Notes under the pieces: model-generated
What the model was told of the DNA's origin: nothing
Databases searched by the model: none
What the model saw: only the letters and a program-made list of their open reading frames with translations
Translations under genes and position numbers: made by a program
Assembly: GCF_000516985.1 (NCBI RefSeq)
Contig: NW_006917092.1
Coordinates: forward strand, 1,566,619 to 1,630,618
Origin: Pestalotiopsis fici W106-1
Taxonomy: Eukaryota; Ascomycota; Sordariomycetes; Amphisphaeriales; Sporocadaceae
Reading direction: 5' to 3'
DNA: 64,000 bases
In this document: positions 1,493 through 10,545 of the stretch, one piece after another
How positions within the stretch are numbered: position 1 is the first letter of the stretch
How the letters are laid out: each line of letters starts with the position of its first letter

Positions 1493-2416
1493 TTAGTAAT
1501 TCCAGCGGATCAGGCCACAGTCGGGGAATTTGCGCCAAAGTAGGGCACTCAGACCATGCATTGGGTTCACCTCCATTTGAGCGTGCGCGCAGTGATCCCA
1601 ATGTTCCCATTGTGACAGATACGAGTCGATTGTGTGTAGTCCTCTACGAGATACAGCTGTGAAGAGTCTCCGGTTCATCTCGGCACAGTGACGCTGGTGA
1701 ACTGCATCTTGTAAGCATCTGAACATGGACAATTGTTGACAATACTTACATTCCCACTCAACGAGTAGAAAGTCGTGCTCTCCTTTGGAAGCCTCTTCAA
1801 TAGTGACTTCTTGTGTGCGGTTTGGCTGTAGCCAGAATCTCCAGTTTGTGTATTTTCTGAAGTTCTCCTCTGTTTCCTCGTCGTAGCATTGTGGGTGCAG
1901 CCATGCGCCGTAGAGCAGGCCAAATTTACAACCACGTTCCCTTGCTTCAGCAGCACTGTTGCCGCAGGGGTTCATGTAAGTGAACTCAGCATTTGGGTTC
2001 TTGACGGAATCACGGCCCGTTTCTTCAATCGCATAAACGCGGTTGTCGTCTTCGGACGCGCATGAATTGTCCTTGTGTCCTCCCATGTGTCCCATGTGCG
2101 AGCCGTGCGAGCCATGCGTGCTGGTTATACCATGGGGTTCTGTATTGCTGGACGAGCCCAAGAAAGACGGTGCAAGCCATCTCGCAAGGAGTACTATCAA
2201 GCCTGCATGCAAGACCAACACAAACAAAAAGAAGATTGTTCTCAAAACAAGATTGAAGCGACTTTTCGCGGGTCGTCTTCCGTCAAACACATAGTCTTTC
2301 TCTTCTGGTGACAGGAACGACTGAGATGCACCATCAGCACTCAGAGATCCGCGATCAACAGGTGAATAAACTTGTCGGTCTGTCATCTTGAGAAAGTACT
2401 TGCGAAGAGTCGACAT
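1493..2416 (-). CDS. Single-pass membrane protein with two HxxHC motifs (UstYa/DUF3328-like)
   Basis: Predicted exons are 2416-1750 and 1701-1493. The 48-bp intron (1749-1702, GTAAGT...TGCAG) keeps frame, so the unspliced frame is also open; splicing gives 291 aa and restores a clean motif. The order is a cytosolic N-terminus, one TM helix around residues 60-80, a His/Gly-rich linker with HGSHGSHMGHMGGH, a CGNSAAEARERGC segment, the family block GLLYGAWLHPQC, then HQRHC (at the splice junction) and HWDHC about 32 residues later. Paired HxxHC motifs after one TM are the hallmark of UstYa-type (DUF3328) proteins, the copper-dependent oxidases that cyclise dikaritin peptides. The surrounding sequence matches a related but uncharacterised fungal family rather than canonical DUF3328. 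It lies 1.1 kb from, and divergent to, the repeat-peptide precursor. Catalytic function is inferred. Confidence 0.7.
   Translation of the reverse strand: MSTLRKYFLKMTDRQVYSPVDRGSLSADGASQSFLSPEEKDYVFDGRRPAKSRFNLVLRTIFFLFVLVLHAGLIVLLARWLAPSFLGSSSNTEPHGITSTHGSHGSHMGHMGGHKDNSCASEDDNRVYAIEETGRDSVKNPNAEFTYMNPCGNSAAEARERGCKFGLLYGAWLHPQCYDEETEENFRKYTNWRFWLQPNRTQEVTIEEASKGEHDFLLVEWECKYCQQLSMFRCLQDAVHQRHCAEMNRRLFTAVSRRGLHTIDSYLSQWEHWDHCAHAQMEVNPMHGLSALLWRKFPDCGLIRWNY
1702..1749 (-). other. Intron in the HxxHC-protein gene
   Basis: Donor GTAAGT at 1749 and acceptor TGCAG ending at 1702; 48 bp, in frame. Removing it joins GAA-T to TTCACC, giving E-F-H-Q-R-H-C and creating the first HxxHC motif next to the preceding WE. 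An alternative acceptor (TTCAG) lies 12 bases upstream of it in transcription order. Confidence 0.6.
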
Positions 2417-3523
2417 TGACTTTTGTGAATCAAGACAGATTCCAAAGGTAGGTGATGATGTTGAGGGCGAGAAAGGATGTTGTGGGTTGTAGAGTGTGTT
2501 GGGACGGTAAATATGATTTAAAAGTTGGATTGGTCAAAAGGACCATGTCAGTATTCGAGATCAGTAGCTTTCATTCAAACCTCGAATCGAATCATAATGA
2601 CAATTGATCTACATTGGATTGTATAGCAAAGTGGAGTCGACCGAATTGTCGCCGATTGGCCCCCTCGTCTTGGCAGGCATAAAAATGGAGTATTGCGTGA
2701 GGCCTTCGTATGATTCTCAAAGCGGCAAAATGCATACGACAGAACAACTCATCATTGTCGTCATGAAAGCCTGCAATATGCCGAAGATCAAAGTGCGGGG
2801 TGATGGAATCGCGGCATCAATGCATGAGAGGCGATCATGAAGCCAGCAGATCATATCGTACTGCAGCCAGCTGTCGATTATTACTTGGTTTGGTCTCAGC
2901 AATTGCATCTAACAGCAGCTAGCTCAAACCATAAGCTTACCTACATTGTGATATTTGCACAACTATAGATATCTGCCTTCAGATCATGGCAGTCACCTGC
3001 CACTTTGGTAGATGGAATCGACCATCAAGCGGCGAGTCTTGAATATGCATTAGCTTATCCGCGCGATACTGGCCCCTGCGTGACTATACCTACAGGTCTT
3101 TGATCTGCGTAAATAATATATCACTTTCGGATGACCAAAAGCAGTACTGTCGATCACCTTTCACCACGGCAGGCAAGTACGGATCCAAGTTGTTGACTAG
3201 TCAACATGCAGTCAGCTGATATGTGACATCGTGAGAGCTTCAAAGATGCAGCTAGCAAACGCTGTACCACCCACTCAGTGCCACCCGGACTGCCTTGCCG
3301 ATATAGCACATGGGGTAGACCATGATTGTCGCCGAGCTTCATCGAGTTACCGAGCCTGCTGTATTAGCCGCCGAACGTAACCTCACAAGAGATGTGTTGA
3401 TTTTCTCAATTGTATAGACGACGCCATATATCCCAAGCTAAACTCCCTTGCCTATTTTGTTACCATCAAGAGCATCAGAGCATCTACACACGTCGTAAAA
3501 TCCTGTCATTCACCGTCTTCACC
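2417..3523. other. Divergent intergenic region, HxxHC-protein gene / repeat-peptide precursor
   Basis: About 1.1 kb lies between two divergently transcribed genes and must contain both promoters. I see no convincing gene. A CT-containing stretch precedes the precursor ATG at 3524. No binding site can be named with confidence. Confidence 0.6.
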
Positions 3524-4232
3524 ATGCAAACATCTTTCACCGCAATTCTCAGCCTATTCTTGGTTGCAAACACACTAGCTGCGCCAGTCGACAATGCAGC
3601 GATCTCCAAACCCACCATCAAGCGCGATACTGAACCCTTTAATGTGGTGAAGCGCGATACTGAGCCCTTCAACGTTGTCAAGAGGGATTCTGAGCCATTC
3701 AACGTTGTGCGCGACACTGAGCCCTTCAACGTTGTCCGCGATACAGAGCCATTCAACGTGGTGAAACGCGATACTGAGCCATTCAACGTTGTNNNNNNNN
3801 NNNNNNNNNNNNNNNNNNNNNNNNNNNNNNNNNNNNNNNNNNNNNNNNNNNNNNNNNNNNNNNNNNNNNNNNNNNNNNNNNNNNNNNNNNNNCAAGCGCA
3901 ACACAGAACCCTTTAACGTGGTAAAGCGTGAGACAGAGCCATTCAACGTCGTCAAGCGGGACTCTGAGCCTTTCAACGTTGTGCGGGATACTGAACCGTT
4001 TAACGTTGTGCGGGATACTGAACCCTTCAACGTTGTAAAGCGAGACTCTGAGCCTTTCAATGTTGTGCGCGATACTGAGCCTTTCAACGTCGTCAAGCGC
4101 GAGACAGAGCCATTCAACGTTGTGAAGCGGAAGGAGAATTTCGCGCCGTTCAATGTTGTGAAGCGTGACTCTGAACCTTTCAATGTCGTTAAGCGAAGTG
4201 GTAGCTATCCCGAGCCGTTCGCTGTTGTCTAA
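3524..4232 (+). CDS. Secreted Kex2-type repeat-peptide precursor (RiPP/repellent-like), interrupted by assembly gap
   Basis: There is a signal peptide of about 19 residues (MQTSFTAILSLFLVANTLA), a short spacer, and then almost nothing but tandem units of the form KR-DTEPFNVV. Seventeen units are visible, six before and eleven after the N gap. EPFNVV is nearly invariant; the first two positions vary as DT, DS, ET or NT. The last units diverge (KENFAPFNVV, then SGSYPEPFAVV). Lys-Arg pairs are sites for the Golgi protease Kex2, so the precursor should release many copies of a short peptide. This layout is known from dikaritin RiPP precursors (UstA, PhomA, GigA) and from repellent/KEP proteins. 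Unlike ustiloxin-type cores there is no Tyr; Phe is the only aromatic residue. No intron is seen. The sequence does not resemble a fungal alpha-pheromone, which carries Trp/Cys cores. Product and bioactivity are unknown. Confidence 0.85.
3620..4229 (+). repeat. Tandem 27/30-bp coding repeats
   Basis: Units of 30 bp (KR linker) or 27 bp (single R linker) encode the octapeptide array. Codons differ between copies at synonymous sites (for example aacgttgtc, aatgtggtg, aacgtcgtc), so protein-level conservation exceeds DNA identity. The array contains the N gap at 3793-3892. Confidence 0.95.
3793..3892. other. Assembly gap of exactly 100 N
   Basis: The run is a round 100 bases, which is the usual placeholder for a gap of unknown size. 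The frame before the gap ends GTT GT and the frame after it begins C AAG CGC. The true missing length must therefore be a multiple of three, and 100 is not. More repeat units are very likely missing. Confidence 0.98.
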
Positions 4233-5810: not shown

Positions 5811-6087
5811 ATAGTGGTATTTAACGCCGGAAATTCTTGAAAACGCTTGAAATTCTAGCGCGGACAGGCGCAAAATGGCTGCTTTGTCATTATAACCACT
5901 AACACAAAAGCTTGATAAAAGGAAAGGTTTTTGGATTAGTTTCTTTATACGGTTTCTTAACTGCACTGCTGTCACAAAGCGATGACTAAGTTCAGTTGCA
6001 CTCGATCCTCCACTTCAAAGGAATATGTGACATTTCGAGAGATATTTTGCTCTTCTACTCTCGCCACACTTGGCCAAATCGACAAGG

Positions 6088-7604
6088 ATGATCTCAGCTG
6101 TAATCAGAAAGACTGCTGTGTGTATAGTCGCACTCACCGTTGAGGTGACCGCCTTTTGGCGGCTACCATGCTCTTCGCCCGTGGTAGTTGAACGAGCCGA
6201 TCCAATCATGGATCCCGGCGTCGTGTCAACTCATGCCCACACGGTCATGGGCTCAAATGCATTCAACTTTTCCATGAATTATGCCGACACACAAACCGCA
6301 ACATGTTCTACATGTAAAGCAAAGCAAGACCTTTCTAGCTACTGGGTACCCAACCTCTACTACCACGCCGAGAATGGCACCTTTATTCCGGTCAAGCAAT
6401 CTGGCGGAGCACTGATCTATTACCTGTAAGCCACGTGAAAAGAAATCGCTCGGCATGGCAGCGCCTCTTGCTAACAAGTCCACAGACAGCGACAAGACGA
6501 AAAGGACCCCGAGTTTGAAAAGGGTCTGATTTCTTTCCCCAGGGACTTTCGCATGATAGCAGGCAATCCACTAAACAGAAACCACACCAACTCCATCGAG
6601 GAGTCAGCAGTGTCCTTTGTGTGTCTTGGCATCACTGAGCCTGCGACACCAGAGCTACCAAAACACAACTGCCCGAATGGCTTGCGTACACAGCTCACTT
6701 TTCCTTCTTGCTGGAACGGAGTTGATCTCGACTCCCCCGACCACAAAAGCCACATGGCATATCCCTCTGGGACAGATACGGGTCCGTGTCCAAGTACACA
6801 TCCGAAACGGTTTATAACGATATTCTATGAAGTCACCTGGAATGTCGATGATTTCAAAGACATGTGGTATGGCGACAAGCAGCCATTTGTTTTCTCTCAC
6901 GGGTATGTAGACTTGTGTGTCAAACACGGAGATCCTGGTATTAACCACTGGACAGGGACCCCGACGGCTACGGCTATCACGGGGATTTTCTCAACGGGTG
7001 GGATGTTGACGTCCTACAAAAGGCAATCACAGAGTGTACGGACAACAGCGGAGTAATTGAAAAGTGCAGCGTCTTTGACCTGCGCACCGATGACGAAATG
7101 GCCGCGTGCAAACTTTTACCCCGGGTCAACGAAGACGTGACGGACGGCGTCCTTGCCGCGCTGCCCGGATGTAATCCCATCCAGTCCGGTCCCGGCGAAG
7201 CCGTCTATCAGCATGACTGTGGCGCCGTGGATACAATTGGTGATCCGATTCTGCCCTTTACCGATGTGTCGACTACACTAAAGTGGCGGTATGTTGGCTG
7301 TGTAAAAGATCCAGCTGGCCAGAGCCGGACGCTCGACGGCGCCTCGCAAGATACCACCGACATGACGGTGGACAAGTGCATCGCGTATTGCGACGCAGCT
7401 GGGTTCAACTACGCTGGTCTGGAGTACAAGACACAGTGCTTTTGTGGTAATGGTGTCGCAGCAGATAGGATGCCGGCCAACGGGACGATCGGCGAGTGCG
7501 AGTATAAATGTGGAGGAGATGGAGGACAGATTTGTGGAGGGTATGCGCAGGCTTCTGTGTATCAGAAGTGCTCTGGCGAGTGCCAGAATGCGAAATTAGA
7601 GTGA
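6088..7604 (+). CDS. Secreted DUF1996 protein with C-terminal WSC domain
   Basis: Exons are 6088-6425, 6486-6902 and 6956-7604 (467 aa); introns of 60 and 53 bp keep phase. An N-terminal hydrophobic signal segment ends before FWRLPC, which opens the DUF1996 domain (about residues 30-300). That domain carries the usual signatures DPIMDPG...HAHTVMG, a YYLQRQ equivalent across intron 1, and DPDGYGYHGDFLNGWD after intron 2. A WSC domain follows (about residues 365-455), with YVGC, the conserved C-x3-C of CIAYC, CFCG and GGDGGQICGG. WSC domains bind carbohydrate in cell walls, so this is probably a secreted wall-associated protein. The DUF1996 function is unknown. ATG 6088 is the first in-frame ATG before the signal peptide. 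Confidence 0.9.
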
Positions 7605-10257: not shown

Positions 10258-10545
10258 ATGTTCAAGTACTCTGGCATCTCCACCGCCGTCGCTGGTCTGC
10301 TTCTGCTTGCTGTCCCAGCATCTGCCAGCCTAGGGATTAGCGTTGTCGACGCATGTCACGAGCAATATGGGCCTACGTGGACAGCCTCCACCAAGGGAAA
10401 AGGCCCCTATGATTGGCAGTGTGTCAATACACTCGACAACATTCGGTGTGGGGTCAGCATGAACCAGTATTGCCGAACTACCTACGGCAGTTGGTTCCAC
10501 GCAGTCTCTACTGGGGGACTATACGATTGGGTTTGCAAAGAATAG
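10258..10545 (+). CDS. Small secreted Cys-rich protein with internal duplication
   Basis: The protein is 95 aa. A signal peptide covers about residues 1-23 (MFKYSGISTAVAGLLLLAVP...SASA-like end). The mature part is two related blocks, CHEQYGPTWTA...YDWQC and CRTTYGSWFHA...YDWVC, each starting with Cys and ending Y-D-W-x-C, plus one extra Cys (IRCGV) between them. The C...YG...W...YDWxC pattern recalls a small secreted module seen in fungi and actinobacteria, but I cannot name a function. Its size, secretion and Cys content fit an effector-like or antimicrobial-like protein; that is inference. A TATA box and a 5'-UTR intron precede it. Confidence 0.8.
   Translation: MFKYSGISTAVAGLLLLAVPASASLGISVVDACHEQYGPTWTASTKGKGPYDWQCVNTLDNIRCGVSMNQYCRTTYGSWFHAVSTGGLYDWVCKE

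Follow-up and report, generated by a model that had tools for sequence, protein, structure and literature searches.

The contig NW_006917092.1 of Pestalotiopsis fici W106-1 contains, near the start of a stretch of 64,000 nucleotides (positions 1,566,619 to 1,630,618, referred to below as the window), a short gene that codes for an array of near-identical units with the core EPFNVV. The question raised by this locus is whether the array represents a real precursor of secreted peptides and, if so, whether these peptides leave the cell as linear chains or are altered on the way by the product of the adjacent gene. To the first part the answer is clear: the gene is a genuine Kex2-processed repeat protein (KEP) gene under selection, with a new sequence type inside a known class. 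For the second part, the best explanation, to which a probability of roughly 45% is given, is that KEP peptides would be released by Kex2 and Kex1 and perhaps oxidised by the adjacent UstYa-related protein. The choice between linear and oxidised peptides is close to even.

Translation of the window gave a reading frame on the + strand from an ATG at 3524 to a stop codon at 4230-4232, which consists of the following parts (positions are those of the window):

3524..3792, + strand: 5' part of the KEP gene, with the start codon, a signal-like N-terminus (about residues 1-20), a short pro-region to the first KR and six units, from translation and hydropathy
3686..3763, + strand: 26-residue predicted product DSEPFNVVRDTEPFNVVRDTEPFNVV with lone-Arg joints, from the unit list
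3793..3892, no strand: gap of 100 N inside the repeat array, the sole N run in the window
3894..4232, + strand: 3' part of the KEP gene, with eleven units, the last being KR-SGSYPEPFAVV, and the stop codon, from translation

The N-terminal hydrophobic stretch FTAILSLFLVA has a mean Kyte-Doolittle value of 2.53 and is followed by NTLAAPV; a signal peptide, as proposed in the initial annotation, which had been made from the sequence without database searches, is compatible with this hydropathy. The absence of any domain besides the repeats was borne out, as only sub-cut-off matches were obtained with Pfam. Matches to Hermes transposase and Rieske_3 within the repeats were among those below the cut-off and were taken as repeat artefacts. 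The reading frame is not continuous across the N run. A length of 100 is not divisible by three, and the frame changes from one side to the other; the run therefore stands for a gap of undefined size, and the true length and copy number are not fixed.

Seventeen units are readable, six before the gap and eleven after it. Fifteen of them have the form (D/E/N)(T/S)EPFNVV, including one that ends in GTN at the edge of the gap and therefore in Val, whatever the last base. The two variants are KENFAPFNVV, third from last, and the C-terminal SGSYPEPFAVV. The earlier count of at least 17 units preceded by KR was correct for the number of units, but only 12 of the 17 follow KR and only ten show the exact pattern KR-(D/E/N)(T/S)EPFNVV. 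A lone Arg after Val-Val precedes the other five (at 3710, 3737, 3984, 4011 and 4068), and the residues in front of the six units before the gap are, in order, KR, KR, KR, R, R and KR. The assumption that all joints are Kex2 sites thus had to be abandoned, and the 100-N gap had also been overlooked. Cys is absent from the units, as had been stated; Tyr is absent from 16 of the 17, but present in the last one.

That the peptide itself is maintained was revealed by the codons. For the six core codons of the 15 exact units, the proportion of nonsynonymous differences (pN) was 0 and that of synonymous differences (pS) was 0.81, with synonymous sites nearly saturated; over all 17 units, pN/pS was 0.033. 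This difference between pN and pS shows that purifying selection on the EPFNVV core is strong, whereas synonymous drift in its codons has come close to saturation. The two positions preceding the core are looser (pN/pS 0.29 in the 15 units). Adjacent and distant units are equally alike, with 2.50 versus 2.51 differences per 15 nucleotides, and only 4 of the 105 pairs among the exact units are identical over these 15 nucleotides. The identity of the units is therefore kept by selection on the peptide and not by recent duplication.

The KEP class was named in PMC6339444, where a repeat coverage of at least 15% is used to define it; here the repeats extend, gap aside, from residue 33 to the stop codon. 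In PMC7329392 at least three tandem repeats of at least eight residues between KR, KK, RK or RR sites are demanded, and the 12 KR sites identified here are followed by 12 fragments of 8-26 residues, all of which end in PF(N/A)VV. The repeat layout, as read originally, thereby matches the published definitions, and a small secreted peptide made in many copies is the likely product, as judged from the repeat array, the signal-like N-terminus and the dibasic sites.

The array is shared with no other protein in the searches made. With the C-terminal part of the KEP, no relative was identified in the protein database at E 0.01 (4377 candidates with lengths of about 80-255), and with the N-terminal part, padded with X, none at E 10 (1377 candidates with lengths of about 217-690). 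No P. fici protein matching the KEP was present among these candidates, and it is perhaps the gap that caused the gene to be missing from the annotated proteins. A search of the P. fici genome (51.7 Mb in 20 contigs) at E values up to 10 returned the two halves of the gene itself and none elsewhere. In a text search of 5.39 million papers, with supplements outside its scope, EPFNVV, PFNVVKR, TEPFNV and SEPFNV did not occur, and EPFNV was identified in two unrelated papers only. The label 'undescribed' given to the precursor consequently applies to the EPFNVV peptide sequence, which is new here, but not to the layout or the class, which are well described in PMC6339444 and PMC7329392. In the latter survey, 2560 of 7878 KEPs are reported to stand alone without a homologue, most types are confined to one genus, and the mean number of KEPs per Ascomycota genome is 5.25. 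The EPFNVV KEP resembles these published KEPs in its signal-like N-terminus, its many near-identical units between dibasic sites, the lack of any other domain and the lack of a detectable homologue, and differs from them in its core sequence and in the lone Arg that joins five of its 17 units. Type G-9 of the survey includes Pestalotiopsis and is described as lacking DUF3328; the absence of relatives argues against a membership of the EPFNVV KEP in this type, as far as sequence comparison can tell.

Kex2 prefers dibasic sites, so that the lone-Arg joints should remain uncut. The 12 predicted fragments are three DTEPFNVV, two ETEPFNVV, one NTEPFNVV, one DSEPFNVV, one 17-mer, two 26-mers and the two variants, where one of the three DTEPFNVV borders the gap and its end is not defined. 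The second 26-residue copy is located at 3960-4037 and the 17-residue form at 4044-4094. The two 26-mer blocks are identical in 64 of 78 nucleotides without a single amino-acid change, and all three multimers start with DS and continue with DT. This suggested that the lone-Arg form is old, and either tolerated or useful.

The hint that the peptides might be modified comes from the gene on the other side of the upstream region:

1493..2386, - strand: neighbour protein with two HxxHC motifs (HQRHC and HWDHC) and one predicted N-terminal helix; in-frame intron of 48 nucleotides at 1702-1749
2387..3523, no strand: intergenic region shared between the divergent start codons, 1,138 bp from start to start

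This adjacent double-HxxHC gene, which was not mentioned in the initial annotation, is the only local hint of modification. The spliced protein has 281 residues and contains PFICI_02669 (P0001) of P. fici W106-1 letter for letter. Its AlphaFold model places a helix, and with it a putative membrane span, at residues 41-74, and the HxxHC pair lies near the C-terminus. The order of one predicted helix followed by two HxxHC motifs is the one present in UstYa (DUF3328, PF11807), and the paired motifs resemble the suspected active site of UstYa. The neighbour is unlike UstYa in that it remains below the Pfam threshold, with no Pfam match and the PF11807 cut-off not reached, and in that it carries a conserved block, CG-x5-A-x4-C-x8-W-x4-C, upstream of the HxxHC pair and outside the region that aligns with UstYa. 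A sequence search of the PDB with the neighbour gave two matches that are not meaningful (E 0.035 and 0.97). In 12 aligned family sequences, six orthologues and six paralogues, H214, H217, H246, H249 and C250 are invariant and C218 is conserved in at least 90%; one paralogue carries HLRHG at the first motif.

The relation to UstYa emerged from a profile-profile comparison in which 11 UstYa frames from this genome (alignment A2) served as reference; the family alignment A3 gave an E value of 2e-6 and the alignment A4 of the paralogues alone 9e-7, both over the HxxHC pair. An hhalign rerun with other settings resulted in 6e-5 for A3 and 2e-5 for A4, with scores of 40.7 and 43.7, respectively, while the controls, 40 column shuffles and one reversal for each, with the family profile as the query against A2 only, stayed at or below 24.4. 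These values have to be read with the choice of the 11 rows in A2, which were picked from PF11807 loci that have both HxxHC motifs in one open frame and thereby strengthen that part of the profile. One paralogue, in locus L016, matches PF11807 at E 4.5e-5 with 23.8 bits, compared to a cut-off of 25. By sequence, the family is remotely homologous to UstYa, which for this member is probable but not proven.

At least seven members of the double-HxxHC family, the neighbour and at least six paralogues, were identified in the genome, and no Pfam model covers them. They are located at C2:1568114, C3:5375591, C5:453637, C6:762334, C3:2141197, C2:4913971 and C10:236918. The member in locus L024 was first noticed while a UstYa locus was being read, and was then recovered by three of four queries with other members and missed by one. 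PF11807 itself has 48 matches in 24 clusters. Three of the five paralogues from the first search were near UstYa, and of the seven members now known, four lie 0.7, 1.2, 1.3 and 3.6 kb from a PF11807 match (P 3.6e-8, given that regions within 5 kb of such a match make up about 0.6% of the genome). The other three are the neighbour of the KEP gene and two members with neither a PF11807 match nor a KEP nearby. By chance, about 0.3-0.8% of genomes would have a KEP no more than 1.2 kb from one of the seven, assuming 5-15 KEPs per genome, an estimate that was framed after the neighbour had been seen, while the hypothesis of an oxidase next to a KEP was itself already published: according to PMC7329392, DUF3328 genes peak at the position adjoining KEP genes.

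Scans for further KEP-like frames covered 36 loci and the window and, in a second scan, 21 loci. Such frames were identified at three of the 16 UstYa clusters that were read, out of 24 in total:

C10, L019:8286-8576, + strand: KEP-like frame with KR-YLVKYEGDEEAAKD repeats beside UstYa matches
C1, L028:2818-3270, - strand: KEP-like frame with two alternating Tyr-rich repeats, EYLNYD and DEYHHYNN (YHHYNN), by several UstYa matches
C2:5.19 Mb, L027:7921-8466, + strand: secreted-looking frame with PHHKGRGKKAGAKR repeats (three PHHKGRGKKAGA(K/R)R units), close to a UstYa match

The frame on C10 is likely a classical dikaritin precursor. A di-histidine is described in PMC7329392 as a feature of two DUF3328-linked KEP types. 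Compared to these other KEP-like frames of the genome, the EPFNVV KEP has no PF11807 partner, and its core contains neither Tyr nor a di-histidine.

On this basis a pathway can be proposed in which the precursor would enter the endoplasmic reticulum by its signal-like N-terminus, Kex2 would cleave after KR and Kex1 would trim the trailing KR. The products would be many D/E/N-T/S-EPFNVV octapeptides, together with the 17- and 26-residue multimers joined at lone Arg. With less certainty, the divergent UstYa-related putative membrane protein may oxidise the peptides in the secretory pathway, where Phe, Asn or Val side chains would be available as targets. The locus would then be a small one for a ribosomally synthesized and post-translationally modified peptide (RiPP) that lacks a canonical PF11807 gene. 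Outside the cell, where the final peptide would act, the simplest targets for an endophyte of tea, as P. fici is described in PMC4320822, would be the plant or competing microbes.

The known systems closest to such a pathway are the precursors of the dikaritins ustiloxin, phomopsin, asperipin-2a and victorin, which share the repeated-core layout and an adjoining double-HxxHC gene. The locus differs from them in that no PF11807 gene is near, Tyr is missing from nearly all units, no tailoring genes were identified in the frames scanned, and the neighbour is a remote UstYa relative only. The Tyr-free core had been considered not to fit ustiloxin-type rings. This does not exclude a dikaritin, since in victorin, as described in PMC9233826, the ring is closed through the side chains of Phe and Leu, and the lack of Tyr is therefore no bar to modification; a modification of Phe had been half allowed for. 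Several results weigh against an oxidation of the peptides. A DUF3328/UstYa enzyme in the cluster is class-defining for dikaritins (PMC12048977); here a remote double-HxxHC relative is adjacent, and one has to go 740 kb along the contig to reach a PF11807 match. The 18 frames of the window besides the KEP that were scanned with Pfam, which included the neighbour but not every exon, contained no tyrosinase, methyltransferase or S41-type peptidase. The AlphaFold model of the neighbour is poor, with a mean predicted local distance difference test score (pLDDT) of 52.9, and the geometry of the active site is not readable from it. The alignment of orthologues alone (A1), in which only nine of 17 rows extend to the HxxHC region, gave a weak similarity to UstYa, with a probability of 28% and, in the hhalign rerun, 5.8% and a score of 27.2 versus 19.6 for the best control. 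One KEP-like frame lies about 8 kb from the paralogue on C10, and none was identified near five of the six paralogues in the stretches scanned, where intron-split precursors would be missed. Finally, relatives of the neighbour with 45-59% identity over 96% of its length are present in Pseudomassariella, Thozetella, Cercophora, Cladorrhinum, Podospora, Apodospora and one metagenome-assembled genome named Bathelium mastoideum, and no EPFNVV-repeat protein was identified in the same database. As judged from the presence of proteins only, the two thus do not appear to be conserved as a pair. The explanation is either a role of the neighbour that is independent of the KEP, or a divergence of the peptides from genus to genus that is so strong, as is frequent among KEPs, that they are no longer recognised.

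The conservation of the neighbour where the KEP was not found fits with an ordinary unmodified KEP, a slightly less probable explanation in which linear peptides with an acidic head and a hydrophobic tail are secreted as signals or in an effector-like manner, and the neighbour is an unrelated conserved gene. In PMC7329392, 6120 of the 7878 KEPs have no DUF3328 among their 15 closest genes, and Tyr is rarer in these than in the others (38.2% versus 65.6% of repeats); linear secreted KEP peptides are documented in mushrooms (PMC9769878), and the scanned genes around the EPFNVV KEP belong mostly to primary metabolism and general transport. What weighs against this explanation is the divergent position, at 1.1 kb, of a member of a family that clusters with UstYa genes. 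The FNVV tails could alternatively form amphipathic fibrils on the hyphae together with the lone-Arg multimers, in which two or three FNVV segments are held by the predicted 17- and 26-residue forms. The protein would then be surface-active or self-assembling like the repellents (Rep1 of Ustilago maydis), which also derive from a secreted precursor of the KEP type. This is improbable: repellent peptides are longer than the EPFNVV octapeptides, nine of the 12 predicted fragments have only 8-11 residues, and Glu, Pro and Asn are kept as strictly as the hydrophobic residues, which suggests a specific recognition over bulk hydrophobicity. A decayed or unexpressed array, for which the lone-Arg joints could be read as decayed Kex2 sites and the missing annotated protein as a sign of silence, is very hard to reconcile with a pN of 0 and a pS of 0.81; moreover, the frame is open on both sides of the gap, and the absent annotation may stem from the gap itself. 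An alpha-type mating pheromone shares the precursor layout. However, the units contain neither Trp nor Cys, no XA or XP dipeptide for Ste13 follows any KR, and in the pheromone types G-4 and P-6 of PMC7329392 Trp residues stand close together, so that this identity, rejected already in the initial annotation, has next to nothing in its favour.

Beyond the preferred reading of released and perhaps oxidised peptides lies a broader and rather doubtful proposal, that a Pfam-invisible branch related to UstYa, with paired HxxHC motifs and the CG-A-C-W-C block, modifies Tyr-free KEP peptides. Some KEPs 'without DUF3328' would then be RiPP precursors, in this case with Phe, Asn or Val in cross-linked or hydroxylated form. 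In the survey PMC7329392, KEPs with and without a cyclisation factor are separated by nearby DUF3328 genes. If the remote double-HxxHC family, which tracks UstYa loci, also served KEPs alone, this rule would miss loci such as that of the EPFNVV KEP, and Tyr-free cores would be candidates for new cross-links. If the neighbour is irrelevant, the locus adds a further member to the stand-alone KEPs, one that selection has kept in good condition. New in either case is the presence, 1.1 kb from a KEP, of a double-HxxHC protein that is invisible to Pfam and whose family shows a strong co-location with PF11807 genes; what this family does in UstYa clusters merits a study of its own.

Upstream of the locus, an ABC transporter and an MFS transporter were identified (stretch L037). 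Downstream, DUF1996 and WSC frames, an unassigned frame and a small secreted-looking frame are followed by a CoA-transferase, a sugar transporter, a myo-inositol oxygenase and a PA14 frame, and further on by a calpain, a HET frame, a triosephosphate isomerase, a dihydroxyacetone kinase, an aldolase, a BBE oxidase frame, an MFS transporter and others. The small secreted-looking frame, at 10258-10545 on the + strand, codes for 95 residues with five Cys and two YDW(Q/V)C segments and has no Pfam match. Next downstream of the KEP, at 6070-7604 on the + strand, DUF1996 frames are followed by a frame with a WSC domain, and these are possibly exons of one secreted wall-related protein.
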